Below are positions 9,032 through 28,333 of a stretch of 36,388 nucleotides of DNA, one piece after another. Every line of letters starts with the position of its first letter. Position 1 is the stretch's first letter. Location of the stretch: assembly GCA_944393295.1 (NCBI GenBank), contig CALXZR010000066.1, positions 1 through 36,388 on the forward strand. Reading direction: 5' to 3'. The stretch is from an uncultured Clostridia bacterium (lineage in GTDB: Bacteria > Bacillota_A > Clostridia > TANB77 > CAG-508). Below the pieces are notes generated by a model. The model had not been told where the DNA came from. It did not search any database and was given only the letters and a program-made list of their open reading frames with translations. The translations under genes were made by a program, and so were the position numbers.

Positions 9032-10165
9032 TTACATATTTTTTTCTCTTAGACCATCTTCAATTATCAAAGAGAGTTTATAAAAAATTTTTTTAAAAAA
9101 AGATAAGCTATAAAAATTGTTTTGTACTAGGGCTAAATCTTTTTGGGCATCTTCTGATATATTTAATATACCATATTTTTTAATAAGTTCTCTTTTTTCT
9201 TCTAAGCGATTCATCATATCACAATAAAAATCGTTATAGAAATTATAGTTCTCAGCATTTATAAGCAAATTTTTAAAATTATAGATATGAGTTTGAAAGG
9301 CTTTTAAAGAATCTATATTATTTATTTGATTAAATTCTTTAGTAAAACAACTTTCAAGAATTATATTTTGTGTTTCTAGAGTTGTATTAAATATTAATTT
9401 TTTTAAATTATCTGATTTTTGAGTTAAATTTTTTAGTCTATTGTTACCTGATTTTGTTTCTGAGCAAGTTGTTAATTTATAGGATAAATTGGCAAGTTCT
9501 GATTCGTAATAAACTAGCAAATCAAAATTTTTTTCTATTTCATTGTAAGCTTTTTCACTTGATTTAGCTATAAAAGTATTTTTAAAAACATCATTACTAA
9601 AAAGTGTACTATGAAATAAAGGATAAGTTCCTGTAAAATAAGCAAGTTCACGCATAAGGGCAGTTTGCAAAGGATAGAAATCTGTACTTTCTGTTGAAAA
9701 ATCCATACCATAATATTTTACTGTGTCTAAACTACTTTCAGAAGCAATAGATGCCATCAATTGAACAGCAGCTTCGTTTAAAGCCATTCCAGTATTTTTA
9801 TTTCCTTCTAAGTTATAAAGACCTAAGCGTAATAATTTACCATTTTTATTTTTTAATTCTTGAATAAAATGTATACATTCATGAATTGCTAGAGTATTTA
9901 AATCGTTTAAATCCATCTTATTGCTAAAATATATAGAATTATTCTTATAGAAATATTTAGCAACAGCATCATTACTAGGAAATTTAGCTACATACATATT
10001 TAAACGAGCAATAGAAACAAAAAGTTTACTTTGATCTAAGTTATGTTCTGGAAATGTAGCACATAGTTTTTCTGAAATAGTAGATGCTATTTTATTGATT
10101 TCTAGTGTATTTAAAGGTCCAATTACTTCTATACCTTCTCTTTTTAAAGTAGAATTAATACTCAT
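9032..10165 (-). CDS. Unknown protein with an HExxH zinc-peptidase-like motif
   Basis: A 377-residue protein that I do not recognise as a named family. I chose the start at 10165 because GAGGGAG lies 5 bases before it; a longer frame up to 10207 lacks such a site. Residues 93-101 read AIHECIHFI, giving the zinc motif H95-E96-x-x-H99. About 32 residues later comes ALNEAAVQL with E131, in the place where gluzincins have a third zinc ligand. The second half is helical and lacks clear motifs. No signal peptide or membrane segment is visible, so it should be cytosolic. It stands alone on the - strand, diverging from the dockerin protease gene. Peptidase activity is inferred from the motif only. 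Confidence 0.7.
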   Translation of the reverse strand: MSINSTLKREGIEVIGPLNTLEINKIASTISEKLCATFPEHNLDQSKLFVSIARLNMYVAKFPSNDAVAKYFYKNNSIYFSNKMDLNDLNTLAIHECIHFIQELKNKNGKLLRLGLYNLEGNKNTGMALNEAAVQLMASIASESSLDTVKYYGMDFSTESTDFYPLQTALMRELAYFTGTYPLFHSTLFSNDVFKNTFIAKSSEKAYNEIEKNFDLLVYYESELANLSYKLTTCSETKSGNNRLKNLTQKSDNLKKLIFNTTLETQNIILESCFTKEFNQINNIDSLKAFQTHIYNFKNLLINAENYNFYNDFYCDMMNRLEEKRELIKKYGILNISEDAQKDLALVQNNFYSLSFFKKIFYKLSLIIEDGLREKNM

Positions 10166-10195
10166 AAGAACTCCCTCAATCTTTCGTATACTTAT

Positions 10196-10266
10196 ATTAT
10201 ACAACAAATGGAGTAAATGAACATATCAAGTACATTAAAAAAATGTTACATTTATGTAACAAGTAC
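10196..10266. promoter_or_regulatory. Divergent regulatory region with an 18-base perfect palindrome
   Basis: The bases 10244-10261 form a perfect inverted repeat (TGTTACAT, TT, ATGTAACA), an operator-like shape. The 7-base word CAAGTAC occurs on either side, at 10227-10233 and 10260-10266. A consensus -10 box for the - strand gene (TATAAT on that strand) is at 10196-10201. No -35 with normal spacing was found; TTGATA lies 22 bases away. An activator-dependent promoter is one reading. Confidence 0.45.
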
Positions 10267-10458: not shown

Positions 10459-12621
10459 ATGAATTTAATAAAGAATATACCAAGTAAGTTAAAAATAGTT
10501 GGTTTAGGTATTGCATTTATTTTGTGTTCGAATAGCTCTTTTGCAACAACTATAGATGATATAGATGTTAAATATTCTACAGAATATCAAAAATGGTTAG
10601 AGCTTTCTCAGGAAGAAAAATTAAATACTCCGATACCGAGTACATATGTAGCTGAAATGCCTGATGAATTAGTACAAGAATTTACTAAAGATAATATGCC
10701 AAGTATTTTAAACGAACTAAATAATAGAAAATTAAATTTCTCTTTACAAAATATGTCAGCATCATATAGTGATGATAGTTATAATTTAACAGAAGATATT
10801 AAAATTGATATAAAAAATCAGGGGATAACAAATCAATGCTGGGCTTTTTCTGCTATTTCAAGCTTAGAAACTAATTTATCTTTAAGTCAAAAATTAGAAG
10901 AGGTAGTGAGATTTTCTGCTAGACATATGGACTATGATACTTCAAGAACTTTTGCAGATGGTATAAATGAAAAAGGTTATGGAAGAGAAGTAGGAGATGG
11001 TGGAATTCCAAATGTTTCATTTAATTATCTTGTAAATGGTGAAGGAGCTGTTTTAGAAGAAGATATGCCTTTTGAAAATAATGAAGATAAAATAAATCTA
11101 TCTGAAATAGAAAAAGAAGTAGATACAGTAACTACTGGATATAGTACTTTACCAGCAATTAATAAAACCTATGATAGTAATGGAAATGCAATTTGTTCAG
11201 ATAGCACTGGAGCAATATATACAGAGGAACAGCTTGAAGCAGCTCGTAATATTATAAAAGATCATATTGTTAATTTTGGTGCAATTGCAGCTGTTACTGC
11301 TGCAAATTATACTGAATATTATAATAATCCAAGTAATATTGCTTTAGCTACTGCTTATTATTGTAATAAAGCAGGAATGACAAGAGATCATGCAATAACA
11401 ATTGTAGGTTGGGATGATAATTATAGTAAAACTAACTTTAATAAAAATAATATGCCAAAAAATGACGGTGCATACATTGTTTTAAATTCATATGGTAGTA
11501 ATGTTTTAGATAATGGATATTATTATATATCTTATGAAGATGTATTAATAGAAACAAGTTTGTATGGTGTGACATCAGCAGAAAAAGTAGATTATGAAAA
11601 TATTTATCAAAATGATTTTTATGGAGGTTTATATCCAATTGGCGCTGCAAGTCAAGATGATGGATATATAGCTAGTGTATATGATAGAACAATAGCAGAA
11701 GAAGAAATATTAAATAGTGTTGGTATTACAAATACACAATATGCAGAATATGAAATATTTGTAAATCCAAATGGAAAAGATTTATTACCAGAAAACTTAA
11801 TTAAGATTGGAGAAACAGAACTATTATCACCAGGATATACAAGAGTTGATGTAGAGCCAACAAAAATAGTAGGTAGTCAATTTGCAATAGTAGTAAAACA
11901 AAAATCTTATGAAAATACAGGTTTCTATTTTCCAATAGAAGTAAATCTTATAGATACAGTATTTGAATATGTTGATTCAAAGGCTGGAAGTAGTTATATT
12001 TCACTAGATGGAAGCTATTGGTTTGAACTTAGAGATGTAAGTATACAAGGAATAGATATGAATAAAGCAGATACTTGTTTAAAAGCTTTTACTACAGTAA
12101 GCGATTCTCAAGACTCAGAAAATGGTAATACAGGTTCAAATGAGGATGAAGAAAAACCAGAAGATCCTGGTACAGATGAACCAGAAACTCCTACAGAAGA
12201 GCCTGAACAACCAGAACTAAAAATTATTTCTGATTTCTATAAAATAGAAGACGGATATATATCAAAAGTAACTTTTAATACAAGCATTGAGGATTTTAAA
12301 AAGAAAATAACTACAAATGCTACTCAAATAGATTTTCTAGATGAAGAAAATAAGGTGATTGTAGATACAAAAGCAATTGTAAAAACAGGTATGAGAGTAA
12401 GATTTAATAATGATAGTATTTATACAATTATTGTACGAGGAGATATAAATAAAGATGGAAATATCAGTTTAGTTGACCTTTCAAAATTAGTAGCACATTT
12501 TAATGAATTAAAAGGTTTTATACTTACTGGTAATGAAGAAAAAGCAGGAGATTTAAATAGTGATGGTAAAATTACAATAACAGATATATCTCAATTAATG
12601 GTAATTTATTCTGCTTTGTAA
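10459..12621 (+). CDS. Secreted papain-like (C1) cysteine protease with C-terminal dockerin
   Basis: A 720-residue exported protease. A signal peptide ends near residue 29. The C1 catalytic domain (about 110-375) has oxyanion Q121, nucleophile C127 (NQCWAFS), H311 (RDHAITIVGWDD) and N343 (LNSYGSN). A lectin-like beta region typical of clostridial C1 proteases follows (about 385-545), then an acidic Pro/Glu/Thr linker (550-586), a small beta module (about 588-658) and a type I dockerin. The dockerin has two calcium loops, GDINKDGNISLVDL from 661 and GDLNSDGKITITDI from 697. Dockerins bind cohesins, and the next gene encodes a cohesin-like wall protein, so the protease is probably held on the cell surface. 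It has its own extended -10 promoter. Confidence 0.9.
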   Translation: MNLIKNIPSKLKIVGLGIAFILCSNSSFATTIDDIDVKYSTEYQKWLELSQEEKLNTPIPSTYVAEMPDELVQEFTKDNMPSILNELNNRKLNFSLQNMSASYSDDSYNLTEDIKIDIKNQGITNQCWAFSAISSLETNLSLSQKLEEVVRFSARHMDYDTSRTFADGINEKGYGREVGDGGIPNVSFNYLVNGEGAVLEEDMPFENNEDKINLSEIEKEVDTVTTGYSTLPAINKTYDSNGNAICSDSTGAIYTEEQLEAARNIIKDHIVNFGAIAAVTAANYTEYYNNPSNIALATAYYCNKAGMTRDHAITIVGWDDNYSKTNFNKNNMPKNDGAYIVLNSYGSNVLDNGYYYISYEDVLIETSLYGVTSAEKVDYENIYQNDFYGGLYPIGAASQDDGYIASVYDRTIAEEEILNSVGITNTQYAEYEIFVNPNGKDLLPENLIKIGETELLSPGYTRVDVEPTKIVGSQFAIVVKQKSYENTGFYFPIEVNLIDTVFEYVDSKAGSSYISLDGSYWFELRDVSIQGIDMNKADTCLKAFTTVSDSQDSENGNTGSNEDEEKPEDPGTDEPETPTEEPEQPELKIISDFYKIEDGYISKVTFNTSIEDFKKKITTNATQIDFLDEENKVIVDTKAIVKTGMRVRFNNDSIYTIIVRGDINKDGNISLVDLSKLVAHFNELKGFILTGNEEKAGDLNSDGKITITDISQLMVIYSAL

Positions 12622-12714
12622 TGTATGTTATATAAATGTAAACAAAAAGCAAAAAATAAAGCTTGATTTTTTGAATATAAAATGTTATTCTATAATAGAA
12701 AAGGAGATTATCTA

Positions 12715-13464
12715 ATGAAAAAGAAAAGTTTAGTAATTACATTAATAATGGTATTAGTTATCTGTAGTTTAATTAATAGTGTTAGTGCATTAAGCTTTAC
12801 TGCTACTATGACACCAAGTAGTACAACAGTTCCAGAATCAACAGAATTTACAATAACTGTTAAAGTATCAAATATTGATGCTGGTGCAAATGGTATTAAT
12901 TCACTTGCTGGATATCTAAAATATGATACAGCAGTATTTGAAACAGTAAGTAGTACTAGCATAGATCAATTAAATAGCTGGCAACCAAGTTACAATAGTG
13001 AAAATGGAAAATTAACTTTAGTAAAAAGTTCTTTTGTAAAGGAAGAAGAAGAAGTTTTCCAAATTACTTTTAAAACAAAAAGCGGTGTTACTGGAAAATC
13101 TGGTGCAATAAGTTTCTCAAATATTGTAGCTTCAAATAGTGAGGGTGACATTTCAGCTGCTGATATTTCTACAACAATTACTGTTGGAACTGCAGGAGCA
13201 AATACTAATACAAACACAAATAGTGCACAAAATCCATTGACTATTAATGTTAATACAAACACAAATAGAAATACAAACACAAATGTTGTAAATCCAACTG
13301 TAAACAATCAGGGAACTAATACAAACCAAGTACCAACTAATACAGCTGATGAAGAAATGCCATATACAGGCGCTGAAGATGTAGCAATGAGAGCTATATT
13401 TGTAGTTTTAGTTGTAGCTGCTGTTTCATATTTCAAATATGAAAGCATGAAAGATGTAAAATAG
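12715..13464 (+). CDS. Cohesin-like surface protein with LPxTG-like sorting signal
   Basis: A 249-residue protein. I start it at ATG 12715 because AAGGAG lies 8 bases upstream and a classic signal peptide begins there (MKKK, then a hydrophobic core to about 25); an in-frame ATG at 12682 would add 11 residues with no such site. Residues about 27-157 form a cohesin-like beta domain: FTATMTPSSTTVPES, GYLKYDTAVFE, then short strands up to STTITV. A linker of TN repeats follows (about 160-212). The C-terminus carries MPYTG (215-219), a hydrophobic segment (226-240) and a lysine-containing tail, the order of a sortase substrate. It lies 93 bases after the dockerin protease gene and is its likely anchor. 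No sortase gene is in the window. Confidence 0.82.
   Translation: MKKKSLVITLIMVLVICSLINSVSALSFTATMTPSSTTVPESTEFTITVKVSNIDAGANGINSLAGYLKYDTAVFETVSSTSIDQLNSWQPSYNSENGKLTLVKSSFVKEEEEVFQITFKTKSGVTGKSGAISFSNIVASNSEGDISAADISTTITVGTAGANTNTNTNSAQNPLTINVNTNTNRNTNTNVVNPTVNNQGTNTNQVPTNTADEEMPYTGAEDVAMRAIFVVLVVAAVSYFKYESMKDVK
13201..13340 (+). repeat. Asn/Thr codon repeat tract in the cohesin gene linker
   Basis: Imperfect repeats of the unit ACAAACACAAAT and relatives encode runs of TNTN in the linker between the cohesin-like domain and the wall-sorting signal. Such tracts can change length by slippage. Confidence 0.7.
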
Positions 13465-13614: not shown

Positions 13615-13643
13615 AATATAGATTAAATGAAAAGGTGAGAAAA

Positions 13644-15548
13644 ATGAAGGCACTAATTACAGAAAAACCATCAGTAGCAATGGAATTTGCAAAAGCATTA
13701 AAATTAAATACTACTAGAAAAAATGGCTATATAGAAGGAAATGATTGGATTATTACATGGTGTGTTGGACATCTAGTAACAATGTCTTATCCTGAAAAAT
13801 ACGATGAAAGTTTAAAAAGATGGAGTTTAAATACTTTACCTTTTTTACCAAAGGAATATAAATATGAAGTAATACCAGCTGTAGAAAAGCAATTTAATGT
13901 TATAAAAGAGTTGCTTACAAGAGAAGATATTACAGAAATATACATTGCGACTGACTCTGGACGTGAAGGAGAATATATTTATCGTTTAGTAGATAATATG
14001 ATAGGTATTCCAGAAAATAAGATAAGGAAAAGGGTTTGGATAGATTCTCAAACAGAAGAAGAAATACTAAAAGGAATAAAAGAAGCTAAAAATTGGGAAG
14101 AATACGATAGCTTATCTGATTCAGCATATTTAAGAGCTAAAGAGGATTATTTAATAGGTATTAATTTTTCAAGGCTATTATCAATAATTTATGGAAGAAG
14201 AATTGCAAAAGACTTAGATGAAGAAAAAATCTCAATTTCTGTGGGAAGAGTTATGACATGTGTTCTTGGAATGGTAGTTTCAAGAGAAAGAGAAATTCGA
14301 AATTTTGTAAAAACTAAATATTATAAGATTATTGGAGAATTTGGAGAAAAAGAATCTTCTTTTAAGGCTGAATGGAAAGTAAACGAAAATTCAAAAGTTT
14401 ATAATTCACCTAAATTATACAATGATTCTGGTTTTAAAAAAGAAGATGATGCTAAAGCTTTTATATCATATTTTGCTGGAAAAAAAGGCAATGTTTTAGA
14501 AGTAAAAAAGTCAAAACAAAAAGAAAATGCACCATTATTGTTTAACTTAGCTGAGATTCAAAATGAATGTACAAAAAACTTTAAAATAAAACCAGATGAA
14601 ACTCTAGAAATAATTCAAGATTTATACGAAAAAAAGCTAGTTACTTATCCGAGAACTGATGCTAGGGTATTGTCTACTGCTATAGCAAAAGTAATTGGAA
14701 ATAATTTAAACGGTATATACAAAAATTTTAAAGATGAAGAAATTCATGGCTATATAGATAAAATGATTAAAGAAAAGTATAGCACAAATCTAATTAAAAC
14801 AAAATATGTTAATGATAGTAAAATTACAGACCATTATGCTATTATACCAACAGGGCAAGGGTTTGAAAATTATGAAAAACTAGATAATTTAAAGAAGAAT
14901 GTATATAGACTAATAGTAAAAAGATTTATTGCTATTTTTTATCCACCGGCTGAATATAGCAAAGTTTCTGTAACAGTTGAAGTTGAGAAAGAATTGTTTA
15001 CAAGTAGTGGAAAAGTATGTATGAAACAAGGCTATTTAGAGGTTTTAAAAAACAAAGCTAAAGAAGGTGAATCTACAGATAATTTAAGTATACTTGCAAG
15101 TTTAAAAAAAGGTCAAGAGCTAGAAGCTTTAAACTATGAAATTAAAGAAGCTGAAACAAATCCACCATCAAGATATAATTCAGGTTCTATGATTTTGGCA
15201 ATGGAAAATGCAGGAAAATTAATAGAAGATGAGGCTTTAAGAGAACAAATAAAAGGAGCTGGAATAGGAACTAGTGCAACTAGAGCAGAGATAATAAAGA
15301 AGCTAGAAAGAATAAAATATATAGATATTAATAATAAAACACAAATTATAACTCCAACTAAAAAAGGAGAAATGATATATGACATAACATTAAAATCTAT
15401 ACCAGATATGCTTAATCCAAATTTGACAGCAAGCTGGGAAAAAGGTTTAGATATGGTTGCTAAAAAAGAAATAGATTCAGCCACTTTTATGGAAAAATTA
15501 GAAAAATATATTAGAAGTAAAATAGATAAATTAGTAGTAAAATATTAA
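13644..15548 (+). CDS. topB: DNA topoisomerase III (type IA)
   Basis: A 634-residue type IA topoisomerase that cuts and passes single strands, mainly to decatenate DNA. The Toprim domain opens with ALITEKPSVA (catalytic E7) and contains ATDSGREGEYIY with D104. The DxGRE form of the second Toprim motif is common in TopB proteins. The active tyrosine is Y335 in LVTYPRTDAR. There is no C-terminal zinc-finger tail, as usual for TopB compared with TopA. The ATG at 13644 has AAAGGTGAG just upstream; an in-frame GTG at 13635 lies inside that site and is less likely. The HD-domain gene follows after 12 bases, so they form a two-gene unit. Confidence 0.92.
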   Translation: MKALITEKPSVAMEFAKALKLNTTRKNGYIEGNDWIITWCVGHLVTMSYPEKYDESLKRWSLNTLPFLPKEYKYEVIPAVEKQFNVIKELLTREDITEIYIATDSGREGEYIYRLVDNMIGIPENKIRKRVWIDSQTEEEILKGIKEAKNWEEYDSLSDSAYLRAKEDYLIGINFSRLLSIIYGRRIAKDLDEEKISISVGRVMTCVLGMVVSREREIRNFVKTKYYKIIGEFGEKESSFKAEWKVNENSKVYNSPKLYNDSGFKKEDDAKAFISYFAGKKGNVLEVKKSKQKENAPLLFNLAEIQNECTKNFKIKPDETLEIIQDLYEKKLVTYPRTDARVLSTAIAKVIGNNLNGIYKNFKDEEIHGYIDKMIKEKYSTNLIKTKYVNDSKITDHYAIIPTGQGFENYEKLDNLKKNVYRLIVKRFIAIFYPPAEYSKVSVTVEVEKELFTSSGKVCMKQGYLEVLKNKAKEGESTDNLSILASLKKGQELEALNYEIKEAETNPPSRYNSGSMILAMENAGKLIEDEALREQIKGAGIGTSATRAEIIKKLERIKYIDINNKTQIITPTKKGEMIYDITLKSIPDMLNPNLTASWEKGLDMVAKKEIDSATFMEKLEKYIRSKIDKLVVKY

Positions 15549-17694: not shown

Positions 17695-18618
17695 TTGAGA
17701 AACGGAATTGAAGATGATGAAATAATTATAGGAATTCAAAAAAAATCAAATGCTACTTCTAAGAAAAAAAGAAAACCAAGGGAAAAAACAAAAAAAGGGG
17801 CAATTACTGCCCCTAAACCTAAAAGTAATACTAAGCAAAAGAAAAAAGAAAAGAAAAATAATATACGAAGCTTTGAAGGCTATGAGAAGACAAGCAGATT
17901 ACGAAAATTAAAAATATTTTTTATATTAGTAGTACTTATAGTTGCTATAATGTTAATTTTATCCTCTGAAATATTTAATATACAGAATATTAATGTAGTA
18001 AATAATAGCATTATAAGTGCAGAAGAAATTATAAATTTATCTAAAATAAGTATAGGTGAAAATATTTTTAAAATTAGCAAAAGTTCTGCTATAGAAGCTA
18101 TAAAAGAAAATACTTATATAGAAAGTGTAGAAATTTCTAGAAAACTTCCAAATACTTTAGAAATAAGTGTAAAGGAAAGAAGTAGAAAATATATGTTGCA
18201 GTTTGCAGATAGTTATGTTTATATAAATAATCAAGGCTATATGCTAGAAATTTCAACTGAAAAATTAGATTTACCAATTATAACAGGTTTTAAAACAGAT
18301 TTAAGCAATATAAAAGCTGGAGACAGATTAGATGTAGAGGATTTAAAAAAATTAGATACAGTAATAAAGATTGTTGAAACAGCCAATGTTAATAATATAG
18401 GAAATCTAATAACTAAGATAGATATTTCGGATAGTAAAAACTATATTGTAGAATTAGCTTCCGAGAATAAAAGTGCATACTTAGGAGATTGTTCTAATTT
18501 AAATACAAGAATGTTGCTTTTAAAAACTATTATAGAACAAGAAAAAGGAAATGCTGGAACAGCATATATAAATATGGATTTAAATACTGGTAGAGTATAT
18601 TTTAGACCAAGTACATAA
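17695..18618 (+). CDS. ftsQ: Cell division protein FtsQ/DivIB
   Basis: A bitopic divisome protein of 307 residues that links early and late division proteins (the FtsL/FtsB group). It has a long, very basic cytosolic tail (1-65, rich in Lys), one membrane helix (about 69-90) and an extracytoplasmic POTRA domain beginning near IFNIQNINVVNN. A beta domain with LPNTLEISVKER and YINNQGYMLEI follows, both typical of FtsQ. The start codon is TTG at 17695 with AAGAGGT upstream. It follows murA by 2 bases, the usual murA-ftsQ pairing of Clostridia. Confidence 0.9.
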   Translation: MRNGIEDDEIIIGIQKKSNATSKKKRKPREKTKKGAITAPKPKSNTKQKKKEKKNNIRSFEGYEKTSRLRKLKIFFILVVLIVAIMLILSSEIFNIQNINVVNNSIISAEEIINLSKISIGENIFKISKSSAIEAIKENTYIESVEISRKLPNTLEISVKERSRKYMLQFADSYVYINNQGYMLEISTEKLDLPIITGFKTDLSNIKAGDRLDVEDLKKLDTVIKIVETANVNNIGNLITKIDISDSKNYIVELASENKSAYLGDCSNLNTRMLLLKTIIEQEKGNAGTAYINMDLNTGRVYFRPST

Positions 18619-18635
18619 AAAAGGAGGAATATAAT

Positions 18636-19349
18636 TTGAATAAAAAACAAATTTCAATTGCTTTAGGCACAATATGTTTACTTTTAACATTAGGAATTTG
18701 TGTGCAATTTAAAACCGTAGATAATAGTATTGCGAGTGTAGCAAGAACACAAGCAGAAAATGAATTGAGAGATAGTGTTCTTAAATGGAAAGAAAACTAC
18801 GACAATGCGGAGTCAAAATTGGAATATAAAGAGGCAGAACTAGAAACACTTAGAAACCAAGTAGCTAGTTCAGATGAGAGTTCTACACAAATAAGTGAAC
18901 AACTAGAACAAAATAATAGTTTACTAGGATATACAGATCTAACAGGAAGTGGAGTAGTAATTACAGCAGCTGATGGAGATTATTCTTCTTCAAAAGGTCT
19001 TGCTTCGCAATATATTGTTCATGATGGAGATTTAGTTGCTTTAGTAAATGCTTTAAAAAACGCAGGTGCAGAGGCAATATCTATTAATGGACAAAGGATA
19101 GTAAATACAACAGCAATCACTTGTGTTGGAAATACTGTAATGATAAATGGAGAAAGACAGGGCTCACCATTTATAATAAATGCAATAGGAAGTCCAGAAA
19201 AACTATATGGACAAATTACAATGCCAGAGAGCTATTATGATAAAATGAAAACAGATGGTGTAGATGTAAAAATAGAAAAAGTTAATTCTATAGATGTACC
19301 TAAATATACAGGTTTGTATAAATTTGAATATGCTAAAGTGGCAGAATAG
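18636..19349 (+). CDS. DUF881 family membrane protein (first copy)
   Basis: A 237-residue protein with an N-terminal membrane helix (about 7-25), a coiled-coil region (about 40-95) and a DUF881 domain containing LLGYTDLTGSGVVIT, ALKNAGAEAISINGQRI and a C-terminal beta part. DUF881 proteins occur next to ftsQ and sbp in many Firmicutes and Actinobacteria and are thought to be linked to division, but the role is not known. It starts with TTG behind a strong AAGGAGGA. It is paralogous to the next gene. Confidence 0.87.
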   Translation: MNKKQISIALGTICLLLTLGICVQFKTVDNSIASVARTQAENELRDSVLKWKENYDNAESKLEYKEAELETLRNQVASSDESSTQISEQLEQNNSLLGYTDLTGSGVVITAADGDYSSSKGLASQYIVHDGDLVALVNALKNAGAEAISINGQRIVNTTAITCVGNTVMINGERQGSPFIINAIGSPEKLYGQITMPESYYDKMKTDGVDVKIEKVNSIDVPKYTGLYKFEYAKVAE

Positions 19350-19361
19350 AGGTGAAATAAT

Positions 19362-20063
19362 TTGCAAAATAGAAAAGGAAGAAATACAATGATTATCTCA
19401 ATCGGTACTATTGCTTTAATTTTAACAATGGTTTTATTTATACAATTTAAAACCGTAAGAGAAACAGATATTACAGCAATAGAAACAATGAGAGAAGCTG
19501 AACTTAGAACAGAACTTGCAAGTTGGAAATCAAAATATGATGAAATATCAACAAAATTGCAAGATACGGAAGAAAAGATTTCTAACTATAGAAATGATAT
19601 AGAAAATAATGAAAAAAGCTCACAACTATTAGAGCAAGAACTAATAGAAACAGAAAAATATTTAGGATATACAGATTTAGAAGGAGAGGGAATTTCTGTA
19701 AAATTAGATGATACTGAATATAAACAAGTAGAGAGTAGTGATATATTATCTTTAGTTAATGAGCTTAGATTAGCAGGAGCAGAAGCGATATCTATAAATG
19801 AAGAAAGAGTAGTATCTACAACTGAAATTGTAAATGTTGATACAAGATTTATTATTGTAAATGGAAAAAGAATTGTTGCACCTTATGAGCTAAAAGCTAT
19901 AGGCGATAAAAAATATTTAGAAAGTGCAATTTCAATAAAAGGTGGTTATGTAGATGAAATAAAGGCAAAAGAAATAACCATTAATTATTCAATAGAAGAT
20001 AATATAACTATTCCTAAATTTTCTGGAAAAATGACTTTACAAAATGCAAATGTTAGCAAATAA
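19362..20063 (+). CDS. DUF881 family membrane protein (second copy)
   Basis: A 233-residue paralogue of the preceding protein with the same layout: membrane helix (about 9-27), coiled coil (about 45-95) and DUF881 domain with YLGYTDLEGEGISV and ELRLAGAEAISINEERV. The two share motif order but have clearly diverged, so the duplication is old. The start is TTG with AGAGGTGAA upstream, 12 bases after the first copy. Its end is close to the sbp start, suggesting translational coupling. Confidence 0.87.
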   Translation: MQNRKGRNTMIISIGTIALILTMVLFIQFKTVRETDITAIETMREAELRTELASWKSKYDEISTKLQDTEEKISNYRNDIENNEKSSQLLEQELIETEKYLGYTDLEGEGISVKLDDTEYKQVESSDILSLVNELRLAGAEAISINEERVVSTTEIVNVDTRFIIVNGKRIVAPYELKAIGDKKYLESAISIKGGYVDEIKAKEITINYSIEDNITIPKFSGKMTLQNANVSK

Positions 20064-20082
20064 AAAATTGAGAAAGGAGAGT

Positions 20083-20502
20083 ATGGATTTCCATACAAAT
20101 AATAAAATGGTATATATATCTATAATAATAGGCTGTATAATAGGTGCAATAATAGGACTAAATTCACCTGTTATACCATATACATATTCAAGTTATTTAG
20201 CAATAGCAATAATTGCAGCACTAGATACAGTTTTTGGTGGAATTGCATCAGTTATAAAAAGAAATTTTGATTTAAAAATATTTCTAACAGGTTTTTTCGG
20301 AAATGCAATTTTGTCAATTCTTTTAACTTATTTAGGTAATAGATTAAATGTAGATATTTATTTAGCAGCAATTATAGTTTTTGTTGGTAGAATGTTTACT
20401 AATTTAGCAATAATTAGAAGATATTACGTAGAAAAATGGTCAATGAAGATAGAGAGCTTATCAGAAAATAAAAAAGTTAAAAAAGAACCGGAAAGCAAGT
20501 AG
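20083..20502 (+). CDS. sbp: Small basic protein Sbp (DUF1290)
   Basis: A small integral membrane protein of about 139 residues with three or four hydrophobic segments. Family-typical stretches are LNSPVIPYTYSSYLAIAIIAALD and the glycine-rich FGGIASVIKRNF, and the C-terminal tail is basic and charged. Sbp is found between divIB and ftsZ in Firmicutes; its role is unclear. I choose ATG 20083 behind GAAAGGAG, although the 3-base spacing is short; ATG 20107 is the alternative. The longer in-frame start at 20044 would overlap the DUF881 gene and has no site. Confidence 0.85.
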   Translation: MDFHTNNKMVYISIIIGCIIGAIIGLNSPVIPYTYSSYLAIAIIAALDTVFGGIASVIKRNFDLKIFLTGFFGNAILSILLTYLGNRLNVDIYLAAIIVFVGRMFTNLAIIRRYYVEKWSMKIESLSENKKVKKEPESK

Positions 20503-20510
20503 ATAAAAAT

Positions 20511-20558
20511 AAGTTAAGATTTTCTAAAATTTTAAGGGAATTTTAACTTTATTTTTTT
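20511..20558 (+). terminator. Terminator ending the murA-sbp run
   Basis: An 11-bp stem (20511-20521 with 20539-20549, one G-U pair, 17-base loop) followed by a run of eight T with one A. It separates murA-sbp from ftsA-ftsZ. Confidence 0.78.
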
Positions 20559-20592
20559 ATTATTAAAAAAACAAAAAAAGACAAAATTTGAC

Positions 20593-20621
20593 TTGAATTT
20601 CACAAAAAAATGGTGTATAGT
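20593..20621 (+). promoter_or_regulatory. Upstream promoter of ftsA (P1)
   Basis: TTGAAT at 20593-20598, 17-base spacer, TATAGT at 20616-20621. It is about 160 bases before ftsA and would give a long leader. Confidence 0.5.
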
Positions 20622-20693
20622 TATCAATGTGTTTTAAATAAAAAATGAAGTTACAAATTCATTACAAATATTACAAAAATATCTCATTTGCAC

Positions 20694-20722
20694 TTGACTT
20701 TTGATGAAAAATGTAATATTCT
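20694..20722 (+). promoter_or_regulatory. Proximal promoter of ftsA (P2)
   Basis: TTGACT at 20694-20699, 17-base spacer, TATTCT at 20717-20722. It lies about 58 bases before the ftsA start. With P1 it forms a tandem pair. Confidence 0.55.
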
Positions 20723-20779
20723 AAACGCATACGTAGAAGATTAAAAAATTAACGGAAAAATAAATGGAGGAGATAAGCT

Positions 20780-22012
20780 TTGGCAATAGGAGATATAATT
20801 GTTGGTATCGATATTGGAACCTCTAAGGTAAGCACAGTTGTTGGCGAAGTAAATAATTTTAATCAAATTGAAATTATTTGTAGCACAAATTGCAAATGCA
20901 CTGGTATACAAAAAGGCAAATTTACAGACGAAGATGAAATAAGTCTTGCTATTTCAAAAACAATTCAAGAAGCAGAAGAAATTTCAAATTTAAAAATAAA
21001 TTCAGCTTATACAACAATACCAGGTAAACATGTAACAATTGTACAAAACAGTATCGTAAAAGATGCAAAAGATAAGCTTGCTGGCATTTCTGTAAAAGAT
21101 GTTGCTTCAGCAATTATTCAAGTTAGAGATATAGAAATTCCAGAAGATAAAGTGCTAATCGATATAGTACCAGACAAATTTATACTAGAAGATGGAAAAG
21201 CGGTAGAAGATCCTGTTGGAAAGTTTAGTGCACATTTTACTTTAACAGCACAAATTATATTAGCAGAAAAAGAATATATAAAGCAATTAACATCAATATT
21301 TAAAAAAGCTGGAATAGAAATAGATGGAGTTGTGCCAACATCTCTAGCAGAAAGAAATTTGGTATTAGATACTAATGAGTTAAATGATAATGTAATGCTA
21401 TTAGATATAGGGGCAGGAAATACAGATATTGGTGTATTTAATGGAACATCATTTATTTATACAAATACTATAAACTTGGGTGGAGATAACATTACAAGCG
21501 ACATAGCATATGTGCTTAATATCTCTAAAGAAGAAGCTGATAAATTAAAAAGACAATATGGACTAGCTTTAAAATCTTTTATTGATAATGACAACAATAT
21601 TGTATTAAATACTTGTAGAGATATAGATGGAAAAAATAAAACAATAAAAAGTTCAGAGTTGGTAGAAATAATAGAAGCTAGAATAGAAGAAATTTTCACT
21701 TTGGTAAATAAAGATATAATAACACATGCTATAAAGCCAAATATTAACAATGTAGTGCTTACAGGTGAAGGAATTGTTAATATAAATAAAAGTGATATGG
21801 CAGGTAAAATTATATTGAATATACCGGTAAAAATATCAACAGGAAGACTAGTTAGTACAATAAAATCTACATATAGAGCAAGTTATGCTTTAGTTAGATA
21901 TATAGCAGCAAGACCTTATGCAAAAACTGTTTCAAGTAGTATAGATGTAAAAACAGAAAAAAATATATTGAAAACAGCAATAGAAAAGATAAAAGATTTC
22001 TTTTATTCTTAA
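20780..22012 (+). CDS. ftsA: Cell division protein FtsA
   Basis: An actin-fold ATPase of 410 residues that tethers FtsZ filaments to the membrane. The phosphate-1 motif VGIDIGTSKV (8-17), the SHS2 subdomain 1C (about 85-165), the phosphate-2 motif LLDIGAGNTDIGVF and the adenosine motif VVLTGEGIVN are in order. The C-terminus ends in a short amphipathic segment (EKIKDFFYS) that can serve as a membrane-targeting sequence. The start is TTG at 20780 behind GGAGGAGA. ftsZ follows after 55 bases with no terminator between, so the two form a unit. Confidence 0.93.
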   Translation: MAIGDIIVGIDIGTSKVSTVVGEVNNFNQIEIICSTNCKCTGIQKGKFTDEDEISLAISKTIQEAEEISNLKINSAYTTIPGKHVTIVQNSIVKDAKDKLAGISVKDVASAIIQVRDIEIPEDKVLIDIVPDKFILEDGKAVEDPVGKFSAHFTLTAQIILAEKEYIKQLTSIFKKAGIEIDGVVPTSLAERNLVLDTNELNDNVMLLDIGAGNTDIGVFNGTSFIYTNTINLGGDNITSDIAYVLNISKEEADKLKRQYGLALKSFIDNDNNIVLNTCRDIDGKNKTIKSSELVEIIEARIEEIFTLVNKDIITHAIKPNINNVVLTGEGIVNINKSDMAGKIILNIPVKISTGRLVSTIKSTYRASYALVRYIAARPYAKTVSSSIDVKTEKNILKTAIEKIKDFFYS

Positions 22013-22067
22013 AATAAATCGTTTTTAATTTTAAAATATAGATAGATAATAAAGGAGGATACACCTT

Positions 22068-23204
22068 ATGATTATGGATAATGAGGATTTAAACTTTATG
22101 ATGGATGGAACTGCTACAATAAAAGTAATAGGAGTTGGAGGAGCTGGAAACAATGCTGTAAATAGAATGGTTGAAGCTGGAATAAAAAGCGTTGAATTTA
22201 TTGCAGTAAATACAGATAGACAAGCTCTAAATATGTCTAAAGCTAACTCTAAAATTCAAATTGGAGAAAAATTAACAAGAGGTTTAGGAGCTGGTGCTAA
22301 CCCAGATATTGGTGCACAAGCTGCTGAAGAAAGCAAAGCTGAAATAGCAGAAATATTAAAAGGTGCTGATATGGTTTTCGTAACTGCTGGTATGGGTGGT
22401 GGAACAGGAACTGGTGCAGCTCCACTTGTTGCAGCAACAGCAAAAGAACTTGGAATTTTAACAATAGGAGTTGTAACAAAACCATTTACTTTTGAAGGAA
22501 AGAAAAGATTAGCACAAGCTGAAAGGGGAATTGCAAATTTAAAAGGAAAAGTAGATACTCTAGTTGTAATTCCAAATGATAAATTGCTACAAGTAATTGA
22601 TAGAAAAACATCTATCGTAGAAGCTTTTAGAATGGCAGATGATATTTTAAGACAAGGTGTACAAGGTATATCTGACTTAATTGCTGTACCTGGTTTAATC
22701 AATCTAGATTTTGCAGATGTAAAAACTATTATGCTAAATCAAGGAATGGCTCATATGGGTATAGGTAGAGCTAGTGGAGAAAATAGAGCTGAAGATGCAG
22801 CAAAACAAGCTATACAAAGTCCTTTATTAGAAACTTCTATCGAAGGTGCAAGAGGAGTTATTATTAATATAACTGGTGGAAGTGATATTGGATTACATGA
22901 AGCTAATACAGCAGCAGAACTTGTTCAAAGAAGTGCTGATCCAGAAGCAAATATTATTTTTGGTACAGTTACAGATGATTCTATGGGAGATGAAATTCAA
23001 ATTACTGTTATTGCTACAGGTTTTGAAAAAGAAGATGAGAAAAGACCAGGTCTTTCAGGATATGAAAATATTGTGGCAGATACTTGGAGAAAAAGAAATG
23101 CTGTAAATACAACATCTTCTACATCTCAATCAACAGAGAGCAATCCAAATGATTTAGATATTCCAGCATTTTTAAGAAAAAACAAAGGATTAGGAAATAA
23201 ATAA
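22068..23204 (+). CDS. ftsZ: Cell division GTPase FtsZ
   Basis: The tubulin-like GTPase that forms the Z ring, 378 residues. The nucleotide-binding [13 protein letters not shown] (22-34), the tubulin signature GGGTGTG (110-116) and the T7-loop region around [11 protein letters not shown] are intact. A short variable linker leads to the C-terminal peptide [11 protein letters not shown], which binds FtsA and other partners. The ATG at 22068 follows AAAGGAGG by 8 bases. A second ATG two codons in is possible. It is the last gene of the division cluster, with a strong terminator behind it. Confidence 0.97.
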
Positions 23205-23236
23205 TCATATAAAGTAAAAAAATAAAATATATAGAG

Positions 23237-23272
23237 AAGAAATAATCTATTTTGTAGATTATTTCTTTTTTT
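23237..23272 (+). terminator. Terminator of ftsZ
   Basis: A perfect 13-bp stem (23237-23249 with 23255-23267, TTTTG loop) merging into a run of T to 23272. Confidence 0.92.
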
Positions 23273-23284
23273 GTGTTCTATAAA

Positions 23285-23317
23285 TTGACACAATTTTAAA
23301 TTTAAAAGAAGTAAAAT
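23285..23317 (+). promoter_or_regulatory. Putative spoIIGA-sigE promoter with long spacer
   Basis: A consensus TTGACA at 23285-23290 has no good -10 at 17 bases, but TAAAAT lies at 23312-23317, a 21-base spacer. In Bacillus subtilis the spoIIG promoter also has an over-long (22-base) spacer and depends on Spo0A. The complement of the -35 region reads TGTCAAT, close to the Spo0A box core TGTCGAA. This assignment is by analogy. Confidence 0.45.
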
Positions 23318-23349
23318 ATTTATAGTAACAAAAGAGGAGCTTAATTTAT

Positions 23350-24261
23350 ATGACGGTTTATATAGATGTAGTAATTTTAGAGAATTTAGCTATGAACTAT
23401 ATTATTTTGATTGCAACAGCACTTATAGGAAAATATGAAATTAAATATTTTAGAAATATCTTAGCAAGCACTTTGGGAGGCATTTATGCAATTTTAAATT
23501 ATATAAAAACTTTTTCTATAGTTCAAAATTTAATTTTTAAAATTGCAGTTTCAATACTTATGATTATAATTACTTTTGGAATAAAAGATTTAAAAACAAT
23601 GGCAAAACAATTAGTTATATTTTATTTAGTATCCTTTACTTTTGGTGGAGCAGCTTTTATGCTACTATTTTTCTTAAAACCAGAGGATATAATATTTAAG
23701 AACGGACATCTAGTAGGTACTTATCCAATAAAAATAGCAATGCTTGGAGGAATTGTCGGCTTTTCTATAATAGCTATTGTTTCTAATATTATTAGAGATA
23801 GAAGAAAAATAAAATCAATGCTATGTGATATGGAAATTTTTTATAATGAAAGAAAAGTAAAATTAAAAACTATGATAGATACAGGAAATTTATTAAAAGA
23901 TCCTATAACGCAAAATGATGTAATAATTGTCGAGAAAAATAGCTTAAAAGGTTTAGTAGAAGATGAAATATTAGAGCACATAGAGGATATATTAAAGGGA
24001 AAATGGTTAGAAGACAATAAAATTCATAATTATAAATTTAAACTAATTCCATTTTCGTCACTTGGAAATGAAAATGGACTCATAATAGGGTTTAAACCAG
24101 AATATATTAAAATATATGATGAAACTGAAAAAATAAGGAGGAATGTAATTGTAGGGATATATCCCGGTAAGCTTACAAAAACAAATTTATATACAAGCCT
24201 AATAGGATTGAATATTTTGAAGGAGGGAATTCATAGTGAAAAACTTATTAAAAATGCTTAA
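23350..24261 (+). CDS. spoIIGA: Sigma-E processing peptidase SpoIIGA
   Basis: A membrane-bound aspartic protease of 303 residues that removes the pro-sequence of pro-sigma-E in the mother cell after engulfment signals. The N-terminal half has five hydrophobic segments (about 5-150) and starts with [17 protein letters not shown], typical of the family. The cytosolic half carries the aspartic-protease motif [11 protein letters not shown] with D177, matching D183 of B. subtilis. Its end overlaps the start of sigE by 26 bases, so translation of protease and substrate is coupled. Confidence 0.94.
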
Positions 24262-24973
24262 AAGTGTAGTTCTTAAAATATTTAAAAAATATTCAAAAAG
24301 AGATGAAGTTCAAAAATTACCAATATTTTATATTAATGGAAGTCAGACTTTGCCACCACCATTAAATATTATGGAGGAGGAAAAGCTTTTAGAAAAGCTT
24401 AATAATAATGATGAAGAAGCTAAACAAATTTTAGTTGAGAGAAATTTAAGATTAGTTGTGTATATAGCAAAGAAATTTGAAAATACAGGTTTGGATTTAG
24501 AAGATTTAATTTCTATAGGTACAATTGGACTTATGAAAGCAATTAATACTTTTAATGTTGATAAAAATATTAAACTTGCAACTTATGCTTCAAGATGTAT
24601 AGAAAATGAAATTTTAATGCAACTAAGAAGAACAACAAAAATTAAAACAGAAATATCTATTGATGAACCTCTAAATAAGGATGGAGATGGAAACGAACTT
24701 TTACTATCTGATATATTAGGAACAGAAGGAGATGTTACTTCAAAGGGAATTGAAGATGAAGTAGATAAAAAATTATTAAAAATTGCAATTAGTAAATTAA
24801 ATCCAAGAGAAATGAATATTATGAAATTGAGATTTGGAATAGATGGGCAAGAAAAAGAAAAAACACAAAAAGAGGTTGCAGATATGCTTGGAATTTCTCA
24901 AAGCTATATTTCAAGATTAGAAAAGAAAATAATGAAAAAAATGAAAAAGGAGATAATCAGTAGGACAGGATAG
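24236..24973 (+). CDS. sigE: RNA polymerase sigma-E factor (early mother cell)
   Basis: The first mother-cell sigma factor of sporulation, 245 residues. The amphipathic, basic pro-sequence (about 1-28, [19 protein letters not shown]) is the part removed by SpoIIGA. Region 2 follows ([26 protein letters not shown]), then region 4 with the helix-turn-helix [22 protein letters not shown]. The length is close to the B. subtilis 239. The start is GTG at 24236 behind GGAGGG, inside the end of spoIIGA. Unlike many relatives, sigG is not the next gene. Confidence 0.95.
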
Positions 24974-24983
24974 AATAGATTAA

Positions 24984-25015
24984 AATACTACTACAATATG
25001 TAGTAGTATTTTTTT
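24984..25015 (+). terminator. Terminator of sigE
   Basis: A perfect 12-bp stem (24984-24995 with 24999-25010, 3-base loop) followed by seven T. Confidence 0.92.
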
Positions 25016-25033
25016 GCAATTTATGTATAGGTA

Positions 25034-25062
25034 TTGACAAAAAAGCTTAAAATTAATATGAT
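25034..25062 (+). promoter_or_regulatory. Sigma-A promoter of the DnaB-like gene
   Basis: TTGACA at 25034-25039, 17-base spacer, TATGAT at 25057-25062, 31 bases before the start. This vegetative-looking promoter suggests that the gene is not sporulation-specific despite its neighbours. Confidence 0.72.
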
Positions 25063-25093
25063 AAATAAAAATGTACATAGGAGGAAATAAGTT

Positions 25094-27040
25094 TTGGAAG
25101 AACTTAATAAAAATAATAAAATAAACCAAAATAATGAAGAGATAGAAGAATATATACCAACAGAAGATGATTTTGTCACAGATGAGAATATTAATTACAA
25201 TCAAAAAAAGGAAAGAAAAATTATTAAAAAAAGTAAAAAATTAGAGCAACTTATGGAAGAAGAAGGTCTTACTGAAACAGAAGTATATCAAAAGTATGGT
25301 CAAATTGATGGACAATTTTCTAATACAACAGAAATAGAGGAAGAAAATGAACTTGAAGATGAAAGTGAATATGATGATTATGATGAAGAATTAGAAGAGG
25401 AAGATGAAAATACAGAAGAAGAACCAGAAGAAGATGCAGAAGAACAAGAAGCAGAAGATGATGAAGAATATGAAGATGATACTGATGAGAATACTACAAC
25501 TTTAGTTGATACAGGAGAATTTCCAGAAGAAATAACAGATTTAAAACTAGAATGTATTTATATAGGTTTATTACTAAATAATCCAAAAGCTATTTCTATG
25601 TATTATTTTGTTTTTGATGAATGTTTATTTTCTGACGAAGAACTTGCAAATATATACAAGATTATATTATTTCAAGACGGAGAAGCTTATGCACCAGCAG
25701 TAGCAAAAGAAAAATTTAAGTTTCCTAGAGAAAATACAGGAACTTATGATTTTAAAATGCAATTAAAAAATGCTGTAAAAGACAGAAATTACAATTTAGA
25801 AGAAACATATACAAAACTAAAAAAATTGTTTATATTGAAAAAATATTATAAAAGTGCACCAACTTTAAATATTCAAAATAAAATTGTTGAAATTGCAAAA
25901 TATGAAAGATATAGTGAAATGACAATAGAAGAGGTAGAAAGTGCAATTGAACAAATAGGTGTAACAAATCGTTTAAGTCAGGCAATTTTAAATGAAGGTG
26001 CAACAGAATTTTTAATAAGTGGTGAAAATAATTTAGTAAACGGTGTGCCTCTACCTTTTCCAATTTTGTCAAGTGTATTTAAAGGCTTAAGAAAAGGAGA
26101 AACAATGGCATATGCTATGCCATCTAACTCAGGTAAAAGTAGATTTACAGTAGATATAGCAGCTTATTTAGCCTTAGTAGAAAGAAAAAAAGTTTTAATA
26201 ATTTCAAATGAAATGTCTGAAGAAAAAATGAGATTATGCTTAATTACCACTATAGTAAACAACCCATATATACAAAAATTACACAAACAAAAATTGTGTA
26301 AAACAGAGGGTGAATTATTAGAATTAAAATTTAGACCAGATAAAAATGCTAAAGATGTAGAATTAGACGAAAATGGATTTATTTTAAAAAGAGAAAATGA
26401 AAGTAATAGTGAATTTGCAAAAAGAATATCAAAGGTTTCGACTGAATTTAAGCAAACTATTCAAGTTACAGAATGGTTAAAGCAACAAATAGATGAATCT
26501 ATACATTTTATTCATATCACAGAACATTCTAATGAAGATTTAAGAAAAATTATATTAAATTATTTTTACAAATATGATATAGAATATATTTTTTATGATA
26601 CACTAAAAACAGATACTGATAATATAGGTAATGGAGAAGAATTAAAAAAGACAGCAACAATACTTTCAAATATTGCACAGAAATATCATGTATTTATAGG
26701 TTCTTCATTGCAACTTTTAGAGAGCAGTACTTTACCAGTAAATTTAACTATAAATGATATGTCAGCAAGTAAAACTATTAAAGAGGTATTAGATACTTTG
26801 TGTTTAATAAAACAAATAAATCCACATACTTATGATAAATATGAATATTCAGAAGAGGAACTTGCAGAAGAGTACAAAGATATAGAGCCATCTAAAAACC
26901 CAGATGTGCGTTATTATGCTTGTGTTGTAGATAAAAATAGAGCAGGAGCAAAACCAACATTATTATTTAGATTAAATTTAGCTTACAATATATGGGAAGA
27001 ATTGGGATACTTAAGATTAAAACAAGAATTTATAAATTAA
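25094..27040 (+). CDS. DnaB-like helicase/RecA-fold ATPase with acidic N-terminal extension
   Basis: A 648-residue protein. Residues 1-145 are an extension with no counterpart in standard DnaB, including a run very rich in Asp/Glu (81-133). Residues about 149-250 resemble the DnaB N-terminal helical domain (LECIYIGLLLNNPKAISMYY). A RecA-like motor follows: a Walker A variant AMPSNSGKS (341-349) with one residue more than the DnaB form, SNEMSEEKM after it, Walker B IFYDTLK (D502) and motif SSLQLLES (Q540). It looks like a DnaB paralogue rather than the replicative helicase, though dnaB is not in the window to compare. Function unknown. The start is TTG behind AGGAGGA. The flavodiiron gene follows after 42 bases. 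Confidence 0.72.
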   Translation: MEELNKNNKINQNNEEIEEYIPTEDDFVTDENINYNQKKERKIIKKSKKLEQLMEEEGLTETEVYQKYGQIDGQFSNTTEIEEENELEDESEYDDYDEELEEEDENTEEEPEEDAEEQEAEDDEEYEDDTDENTTTLVDTGEFPEEITDLKLECIYIGLLLNNPKAISMYYFVFDECLFSDEELANIYKIILFQDGEAYAPAVAKEKFKFPRENTGTYDFKMQLKNAVKDRNYNLEETYTKLKKLFILKKYYKSAPTLNIQNKIVEIAKYERYSEMTIEEVESAIEQIGVTNRLSQAILNEGATEFLISGENNLVNGVPLPFPILSSVFKGLRKGETMAYAMPSNSGKSRFTVDIAAYLALVERKKVLIISNEMSEEKMRLCLITTIVNNPYIQKLHKQKLCKTEGELLELKFRPDKNAKDVELDENGFILKRENESNSEFAKRISKVSTEFKQTIQVTEWLKQQIDESIHFIHITEHSNEDLRKIILNYFYKYDIEYIFYDTLKTDTDNIGNGEELKKTATILSNIAQKYHVFIGSSLQLLESSTLPVNLTINDMSASKTIKEVLDTLCLIKQINPHTYDKYEYSEEELAEEYKDIEPSKNPDVRYYACVVDKNRAGAKPTLLFRLNLAYNIWEELGYLRLKQEFIN

Positions 27041-27047
27041 ATATTAG

Positions 27048-27085
27048 AAAGGAGAAGAGCTAAATAAATTAGCTAAGAAAATATG
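27048..27085 (+). promoter_or_regulatory. Ribosome site separated from the fprA start by a hairpin
   Basis: The only good Shine-Dalgarno site, AAAGGAG at 27048-27054, is 28 bases from the ATG, too far for normal use. A perfect 6-bp hairpin (27058-27063 with 27069-27074, 5-base loop) lies between them. Folding would bring the site to an effective distance of about 11 bases. There is no alternative upstream start because a TAA lies in frame at 27074-27076. Confidence 0.5.
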
Positions 27086-28243
27086 AAGGTAGAAGAATTT
27101 GTAAAAAATGTTTATTATGTAGGTGTGGAAGACAATACACTTGATTTATTTGAAAGTCAATATCCACTTCCAAAAGGAATCACATATAATTCTTATATTA
27201 TAAAAGATGAAAAAAACATAATTATTGATACTGTAGATAATAGAAAAACAGATGAATGGTTACAAAATATAGAACAAGTTTTACAAGGAGAAAAACTAGA
27301 ATATTTAGTAGTATCTCATTTAGAGCCAGATCACAGTGGAAGTATTGATGCTTTAATTTCTAAATATCCAGAGATTAAAATAATAGGAAATGCAAAAACT
27401 TTTGCTTTTCTACCACAATTTATTAAATCAGATATCGAAAACAATAAAGTTGTTGTATCAGAAGGAGAAACATTAAACATAGGAGAACATACCTTTAAAT
27501 TTATAATGGCACCAATGGTACATTGGCCAGAGGTAATGGTAGAATATGAGATGAAAGAAAAAATTCTGTTTTCTGCAGATGCTTTTGGTACATTTGGTAT
27601 TTTAGAAAATGAAGAAGATTGGTACGAAGATGCAGGAAGATATTATTTTAATATAGTAGGTAAATATGGTGTGCAAGTTCAAATGTTATTAAAAAAGGCA
27701 GCTTCTTTAGATATAAAAATGATATGCTCACTACATGGACCAATTTTAAGAAATAATTTAGAAAAATATATAAAACTATATGATACTTGGAGCAAATATG
27801 AATCAGAAGAGGAAGGAATTGTTGTAGCATATGCATCAATACATGGAAATACAAAAAAAATAGCAGAGGAATTTGCAAAACAGTTACTAGATAGAGGTAA
27901 AAAAGTTGCAATTTATGATTTAGCAAGAGAAAGCTTATCTTATACAATCGCAGATGCTTTTAAATATAGTACACTTGTTTTAGCTGCGTCAACTTATAAT
28001 ATGAATGCTTTTCCACCAATGCAATCTTTATTGTACCAATTACTTGGAAAAAATTATCAAAATAGAAAAATAGCAATTATAGAAAATGGTACTTGGGCAC
28101 CAAATGCAGCAAATTGTATGAAAGAATATATAGAAAAAATGAAGGATATTACAATATACGAACCAATAGTAACAATAAGAACTACTTTAAATGATGAGAG
28201 TAGAAATAAATTAAATGAATTAATTGAAAATATTGTCAAATAA
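27083..28243 (+). CDS. fprA: Flavodiiron protein (FprA-type oxygen/NO reductase)
   Basis: A cytosolic enzyme of 386 residues that reduces O2 to water, or NO to N2O, protecting anaerobes from oxidative or nitrosative stress. The metallo-beta-lactamase domain (1-240) has all diiron ligands: H79, E81, D83 and H84 (HLEPDHSGS), H147 (MVHWPE), D166 (SADAFGTFG) and H218 (SLHGPI). The flavodoxin domain (about 246-386) binds FMN with AYASIHGNTKKIAEE and ASTYNMNAFPP. No C-terminal rubredoxin is fused, so an external electron donor is needed. It probably shares a transcript with the DnaB-like gene. Confidence 0.94.
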   Translation: MKVEEFVKNVYYVGVEDNTLDLFESQYPLPKGITYNSYIIKDEKNIIIDTVDNRKTDEWLQNIEQVLQGEKLEYLVVSHLEPDHSGSIDALISKYPEIKIIGNAKTFAFLPQFIKSDIENNKVVVSEGETLNIGEHTFKFIMAPMVHWPEVMVEYEMKEKILFSADAFGTFGILENEEDWYEDAGRYYFNIVGKYGVQVQMLLKKAASLDIKMICSLHGPILRNNLEKYIKLYDTWSKYESEEEGIVVAYASIHGNTKKIAEEFAKQLLDRGKKVAIYDLARESLSYTIADAFKYSTLVLAASTYNMNAFPPMQSLLYQLLGKNYQNRKIAIIENGTWAPNAANCMKEYIEKMKDITIYEPIVTIRTTLNDESRNKLNELIENIVK

Positions 28244-28269
28244 AGATAAATTATACAGAACAATATAGC

Positions 28270-28317: not shown

Positions 28318-28333
28318 AAGGAGGTCTTATTTT

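Follow-up and report, generated by a model that had tools for sequence, protein, structure and literature searches.

The cohesin–dockerin interaction is otherwise known mainly from cellulosomes and a few enzyme complexes, whereas the present analysis concerns a two-gene arrangement that recurs in uncultured gut bacteria, both for a protease and for further surface proteins. It was examined in a stretch of 36,388 nucleotides from an uncultured Clostridia bacterium (contig CALXZR010000066.1 of GenBank assembly GCA_944393295.1; this whole stretch is referred to as the window), in which a gene for a cysteine protease with a C-terminal dockerin adjoins a gene for a cohesin protein with a putative wall-anchoring signal. 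Among the closest described systems, the accessible parts of PMC3573020 and PMC2930009 present ScaE of Ruminococcus flavefaciens as a single-cohesin sortase substrate that holds the X-dockerin proteins ScaB, CttA and RflaF_05439 on the wall, the last being a cysteine-peptidase-like (NlpC/P60) protein. In the available text of PMC12997984, Clostridium perfringens carries cohesins on glycoside hydrolase-domain proteins, where they join other enzymes, and the Limousia mucinolysome of gut bacteria includes dockerin peptidases and the wall-anchored LPxTG cohesin protein cSca5. The same text counts 4333 human-gut metagenome-assembled genomes (MAGs) with both cohesin and dockerin, so that their co-occurrence in gut genomes was already known. 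As far as the accessible portion of PMC11557425 goes, Lachnoclostridium sp. MSJ-17, a presumably non-cellulolytic 'scaffoldin-containing' microbe, has single-cohesin proteins with C-terminal membrane helices.

We consider it probable that the two adjacent genes of the window form a split surface protein, in which an X-dockerin protease would be held by a wall-anchored cohesin. Holding the protease on the cell surface is the most likely predicted role of the conserved pair, and sequence comparison indicates that related genomes have several pairs of this kind. The basis for this consists of the domains, the predicted folds, the gene order, the dockerin proteases that have no tail of their own and the sortases found in relatives. 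The cohesin protein would be exported and linked by sortase to the wall at MPYTG, as its signal suggests; the protease would also be exported, and its X-dockerin may grip the cohesin outside the cell in a calcium-dependent manner, to which the folds, the adjacency and the presence of a dockerin in place of a tail among relatives all point. In this way each wall-anchored cohesin would present a single cysteine protease, no scaffoldin being involved. Surface display by such a pair had been proposed in an earlier note made from the letters of the window, and the comparison with relatives (tails and gene order) supports such display; the interpretation of the note as a whole is supported in part.

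Domain architecture and predicted structures

Both open reading frames (ORFs) described in the earlier note are present at the coordinates given there, and Peptidase_C1, Dockerin_1 and Cohesin score above the curated Pfam cut-offs (Table 1). In the protease, Peptidase_C1 is found at residues 117–360 (E = 6.3e-15) and Dockerin_1 (PF00404) at residues 661–713 (E = 1.3e-8). The catalytic residues C127, H311 and N343, previously described as complete, are indeed all present together with the oxyanion residue Q121; an alignment of 27 protease sequences, the window copy included, shows no variation at Q121, C127 or H311, and at least 90% of the sequences share N343. The best solved relatives are 4ci7 (E = 8.8e-24, best stretch residues 260–481) and 4d59 (residues 115–481), and the similarity to them extends past the catalytic domain, up to residue 481. 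Both records bear the name 'putative cell surface-associated cysteine protease', and we take both to be Cwp84 of Clostridioides difficile. The protein has the sequence features of a C1A (papain) protease of this kind, proteolysis itself being predicted. Lectin_like (PF18560) is precomputed for many of the homologues, and this Pfam family gives no score in the window copy. At least 471 homologues were found at E ≤ 1e-3, the scoring having covered the 7995 candidates with most words in common.

An X module of about 70 residues stands ahead of the dockerin in the close protease family, and structure comparison of the window copy with known X modules gave weak similarity and no clear match. The predicted structure of the dockerin superimposes on 1ohz_B with 0.8 Å over 56 residues and contains two EF-hand-like calcium loops, in agreement with the two loops noted earlier, and profile and model together identify the C-terminus as a type I dockerin.

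The second ORF (12682–13464, 260 residues) lies on the same strand as the protease. Its start is probably 11 codons too long, because most aligned relatives use the methionine at 12715, behind AAAGGAG. Cohesin is matched at residues 48–168 (E = 6.5e-8), with 364 homologues of the protein at E ≤ 1e-3, and structure prediction gave a cohesin β fold for the domain that the earlier note had placed at residues 27–157, so that profile and model together point to a cohesin. Thus the domains of the earlier description stood, whereas its start at 12682 is probably wrong and the X module and the second half of the protease had been missed. The Thr/Asn linker, motif and membrane segment of the earlier note were also recovered: of the 55 residues after the cohesin, 18 are Asn and 13 are Thr, and then come MPYTG, a hydrophobic stretch and a tail with charged residues. 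Of 30 aligned sequences, 28 have an xPYTG motif, in which x is I, M, V or A but not L, together with a hydrophobic segment and a charged tail. With a signal peptide, an LPxTG-like motif, a hydrophobic segment and a positive tail, the protein is a putative sortase substrate with predicted cleavage. The sortase expected by the earlier note was sought in relatives, and Pfam finds sortases in all 21 genomes behind 21 loci.

Gene order and surface attachment among protease relatives

The order unknown minus-strand gene, protease, cohesin and topoisomerase III is found in the window and at L001–L011, L013, L015, L021 and L190 (L and G numbers are our handles for loci and genomes), and the L014 stretch stops short of the expected topoisomerase III position. 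The many homologues of both proteins and this conserved order place the observation beyond chance.

Scanning genomes with the alignment of the protease gave 552 loci, of which 80 were kept; the kept loci that exceed about 44% identity come from MAGs of uncultured Clostridia. The ORFs of the kept loci were searched with custom profiles of the protease, the X module, the dockerin and the cohesin. The analysis comprised 88 proteases, with four cut by contig ends and two fragments set aside. A sortase-like tail, identified with a rule of our own that overlooks certain forms, was found in none of the 26 proteases with a dockerin and in 39 of the 62 without, whereas a same-strand cohesin ORF lay within 3 kb of 20 of the 26 and of only two of the 62. 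Two further dockerin proteases, both at L026, have a cohesin ORF 5.6 and 3.5 kb past their ends in the same gene run. As for the two dockerin-less proteases with a cohesin neighbour, L028 has no dockerin and L019 has one in the next frame, overlapping the protease end (L019:12258-12422), which reflects either a real frameshift or an assembly error.

Several observations weigh against the pair as the unit of attachment. At L188 and L189 the cohesin is present and the protease is absent; L016 and L017 have a dockerin protease without a neighbouring cohesin, in genomes with two cohesin matches each; L041 and L057 are of the same kind, in genomes with two and four Pfam cohesin matches; and at L028 both genes are in place and the protease has no dockerin. 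Moreover, in a tree of the 88 proteases the dockerin, tail and cohesin states are clustered, so that supported branches provide only three independent contrasts; with relatedness among the 88 taken into account, the sign test shows significance for neither association. Many independent replacements between dockerin and own tail are hence not upheld by these contrasts, and a strictly private protease–cohesin pair was rejected as a firm claim in view of L188, L189, L016, L017 and L028. The conserved order, taken with these variants and with L191, where another gene stands in place of topoisomerase III, indicates that the pair is old and stable and that either member can be kept alone.

The same variants at L188, L189, L016 and L017 would be expected if the cohesin were a shared wall socket, a ScaE-like hub with the protease as one of several dockerin users and the adjacency reflecting one inherited locus. 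We consider this unlikely, for reasons that lie in the dockerin classes described below.

Cohesins and dockerins across related genomes

At the thresholds used, Pfam finds 115 dockerins and 99 cohesins in the 21 genomes. A cohesin match, in the same frame or another, is present at 1.5 kb or less from 63 of these dockerins, compared with 1.25 expected under uniform placement. Among 20 genomes that contain 17 tail-bearing and three dockerin-bearing loci, cohesin matches were obtained in 19 and dockerin matches in 18; cohesins and dockerins are therefore general in the group and not tied to the protease, since the genomes with tail-bearing proteases mostly hold both. The stretches read come from 20 genomes and contain 109 of the 115 matches to dockerin; the six outside them are the four in G016, which is closely related to G015, and single ones in G009 and G017. 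Over these stretches our own profile also gives 109 dockerin ORFs, by coincidence. Of these ORFs, 57 have a separate same-strand cohesin ORF within 3 kb, 24 include a cohesin in their own frame, and for 38 the profile marks no cohesin, whether adjacent or internal. This last number is an upper bound, because some of the 38 are located at the ends of contigs and a few cohesins recognised by Pfam or a laxer cut escaped the profile (L103, L158 and L087, where the Pfam cohesin is in the same frame). The earlier note had suggested that other dockerin proteins may use the same anchor; the 57 ORFs with a cohesin of their own nearby weigh against this, and the two genomes that keep the locus cohesin without the protease weigh in its favour.

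The dockerins differ by class in the motifs of both calcium loops, the protease class being one of several that recur; classes were assigned by simple patterns, with 28 of the 109 in a remainder. The others are a leucine-rich repeat (LRR) class, in which LRR was seen in L081, the sole paired protein that was scanned; a QRHIL class, encoded next to a cohesin and a sortase, with SH3 in L082, the sole member scanned; a TDLAKLK class on chain-like cohesin-X-dockerin proteins, several per genome; and a class on proteins of about 590 residues without a cohesin neighbour. Mean identity among paired cohesins is 45% within a class between genomes versus 28% between classes within a genome, and the corresponding values for dockerins are 53% and 34%. 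For 52 of the 57 pairs, the cohesin of greatest similarity from a different genome is a member of the same class, compared with a mean of 14.7 and a maximum of 32 in within-genome shuffles. Such class-specific matching speaks against a shared socket, although it shows dedicated lineages rather than orthogonal binding, because inheritance of whole operons could also yield it. The up to 38 unpaired dockerin ORFs, the several chain-class dockerins per genome and two different G011 proteins, L104 (DUF4832/DUF4874) and L106, which have the LRR-class motif and no cohesin ORF within 3 kb, stand on the side of the socket.

The split surface protein may belong to a wider scheme, in which small-genome gut Clostridia would use parallel, mutually exclusive cohesin–dockerin plugs sorted by cargo (protease, LRR, SH3 and chain-forming), generally replacing direct sortase anchoring. 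We regard this as doubtful; the G011 proteins and the several chain-class dockerins per genome make it slightly less likely. If true, surface proteins would be exchangeable without covalent fixation to the wall. The orthogonality of pairs coexisting in one small genome becomes testable, and such pairs offer natural matched sets for surface display.

An LRR-class dockerin protein adjoins a single-cohesin protein at L081:4023-9115 (G001:C14) and in 12 more pairs, several with an LPATG-like tail; by sequence these form another paired class that is maintained in different genomes. A conserved cluster that joins a cohesin-LPKTG gene with a sortase match and a gene for a dockerin protein is present at L082:7684-11315 (G001:C25), L114, L128, L143, L155, L166, L174 and L187, some with a second cohesin match, in what looks like a dedicated sortase locus. 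ORFs of about 1,250–2,660 residues with C-terminal cohesin, X module and dockerin (L088, L090, L091, L116, L150 and L169, some clipped by the stretch) could link head to tail.

At L022:6128-14094 and L023:350-8295, a single gene run encodes a cohesin with a membrane tail, a protease-X-dockerin, a cohesin-X-dockerin adaptor, a second protease-X-dockerin and a cohesin-LPxTG protein, a possible two-protease chain; the first of the two L022 proteases has six Big_2 repeats. Longer chains therefore exist in relatives, and this run favours an alternative in which the protease is set free and docks onto cohesins carried by other cells or by cohesin-X-dockerin chain proteins, giving a mobile or multi-part complex. 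In the clade of the window, however, the partner encoded next door is a wall-anchored one, and an anchor of their own is present in many related proteases that lack a dockerin, which makes release very improbable for the window protease.

A search from the cohesin side covered 98 genomes from the family of G001, G001 included. The cohesin alignment matched 47 of them at 1e-10 and only five below 1e-50, and 20 of these 47 genomes were searched with the alignment of the protease. A protease-X-dockerin adjoins the cohesin in G047, G050, G053, G063, G073 and G102, and a different X-dockerin protein does so in G048, G079 and G127; others, such as G089 and G118, have no X-dockerin protein beside it, and the protease alignment found no match in G100. 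G089 and G118 have two Pfam dockerins each, none with the protease-class motif. G118 also has two Pfam cohesins, one dockerin and one cohesin sharing a contig, which leaves a locus-type cohesin and a dockerin in a 607-residue frame unpaired. These leftovers would suit a shared socket, but the lack of the protease-class motif in the unpaired dockerin goes against it.

Neighbouring genes

The minus-strand gene at 9032–10207 is a constant neighbour of the pair across relatives. The topoisomerase III gene is broken up into three ORFs at L015:13159-15104 and two at L009:13143-15090, through either a broken gene or an assembly error. A promoter scan gave 23 sites against a shuffle mean of 25.2; as this is no excess, no promoter is claimed. 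Positions 17695–29107 of the window hold cell-division and sporulation genes (FtsQ-type POTRA, FtsA, FtsZ, SpoIIGA and two sigma factors), which suggest descent from a spore former.

Table 1. Coordinates of the protease–cohesin pair and its flanking genes in the window
Feature	Position	Strand	Remarks
Predicted secreted cysteine protease (C1A) carrying an X module and, at its C-terminus, a type I dockerin	10459..12621	+	720 residues
Papain-type (C1) catalytic domain	10807..11538	+	Residues 117–360; Q121, C127, H311, N343
Second half related to 4ci7/4d59 (lectin-like region)	11551..12093	+	About residues 365–545; boundaries inferred
X module before dockerin	12220..12438	+	Residues 588–660
Type I dockerin	12439..12597	+	Residues 661–713; two calcium loops
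Putative wall-anchored single-cohesin protein	12715..13464	+	Likely start 12715; longest ORF from 12682
Cohesin domain	12793..13194	+	Pfam and predicted fold
Asn/Thr-rich linker	13195..13356	+	
MPYTG sorting-signal-like motif, membrane segment and charged tail	13357..13461	+	
Conserved flanking gene, syntenic marker U391	9032..10207	-	No Pfam match
Topoisomerase III-like gene, syntenic marker on the other side	13635..15548	+	Pfam Topoisom_bac, Toprim

Comparison with known systems

The protease of 4ci7/4d59 is homologous to the window protease, the part after the catalytic domain included, and is presumably attached to the surface by cell-wall-binding modules, whereas the window protease is predicted to be attached by its dockerin. 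The closest solved folds to the window cohesin are C. perfringens single cohesins outside cellulosomes, and the C. perfringens cohesin/dockerin glycoside hydrolase structures 2vo8, 2jh2, 2w1n and 2ozn were met in the fold comparisons; the window cohesin differs in being a bare, putatively wall-anchored socket beside a protease gene and not part of a glycoside hydrolase-domain protein. The likeness to the cellulosome drawn in the earlier note holds as an analogy only: the three Pfam dockerins of G001, the nearest relative, are on the protease, an LRR protein and an SH3-domain protein, with four cohesin matches in four different frames, and a Pfam scan of the LRR and SH3 proteins found no glycoside hydrolase families.

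The pair resembles ScaE of R. flavefaciens in its single cohesin with a predicted sortase signal and in the X-dockerin architecture of the putative partner. As described in the available parts of its accounts, ScaE anchors a large cellulosome via the scaffoldin ScaB and has several partners, whereas in the window the likely partner is the next-door C1A protease, no scaffoldin is seen at the locus and the X module has no clear counterpart among known ones; relatives of the window have several separate pairs per genome. The Limousia mucinolysome, in the accessible text, has multi-cohesin scaffoldins, many dockerin carbohydrate-active enzymes aimed at mucin and broad predicted cross-binding, unlike the separate pairs of the window's relatives. 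The single cohesins of Lachnoclostridium sp. MSJ-17 are described as sockets for up to 39 dockerin proteins, and the accessible portion of that account (PMC11557425) includes no adjacent protease–cohesin pair. No description of an adjacent C1 protease-dockerin and wall-anchored cohesin pair was found in the open-licence literature, as far as its accessible text extends. Within the available parts of their accounts, ScaE and the Limousia mucinolysome are precedents, and what differs from them here is a conserved adjacent gene pair, free of scaffoldin, with several such pairs coexisting in small genomes.
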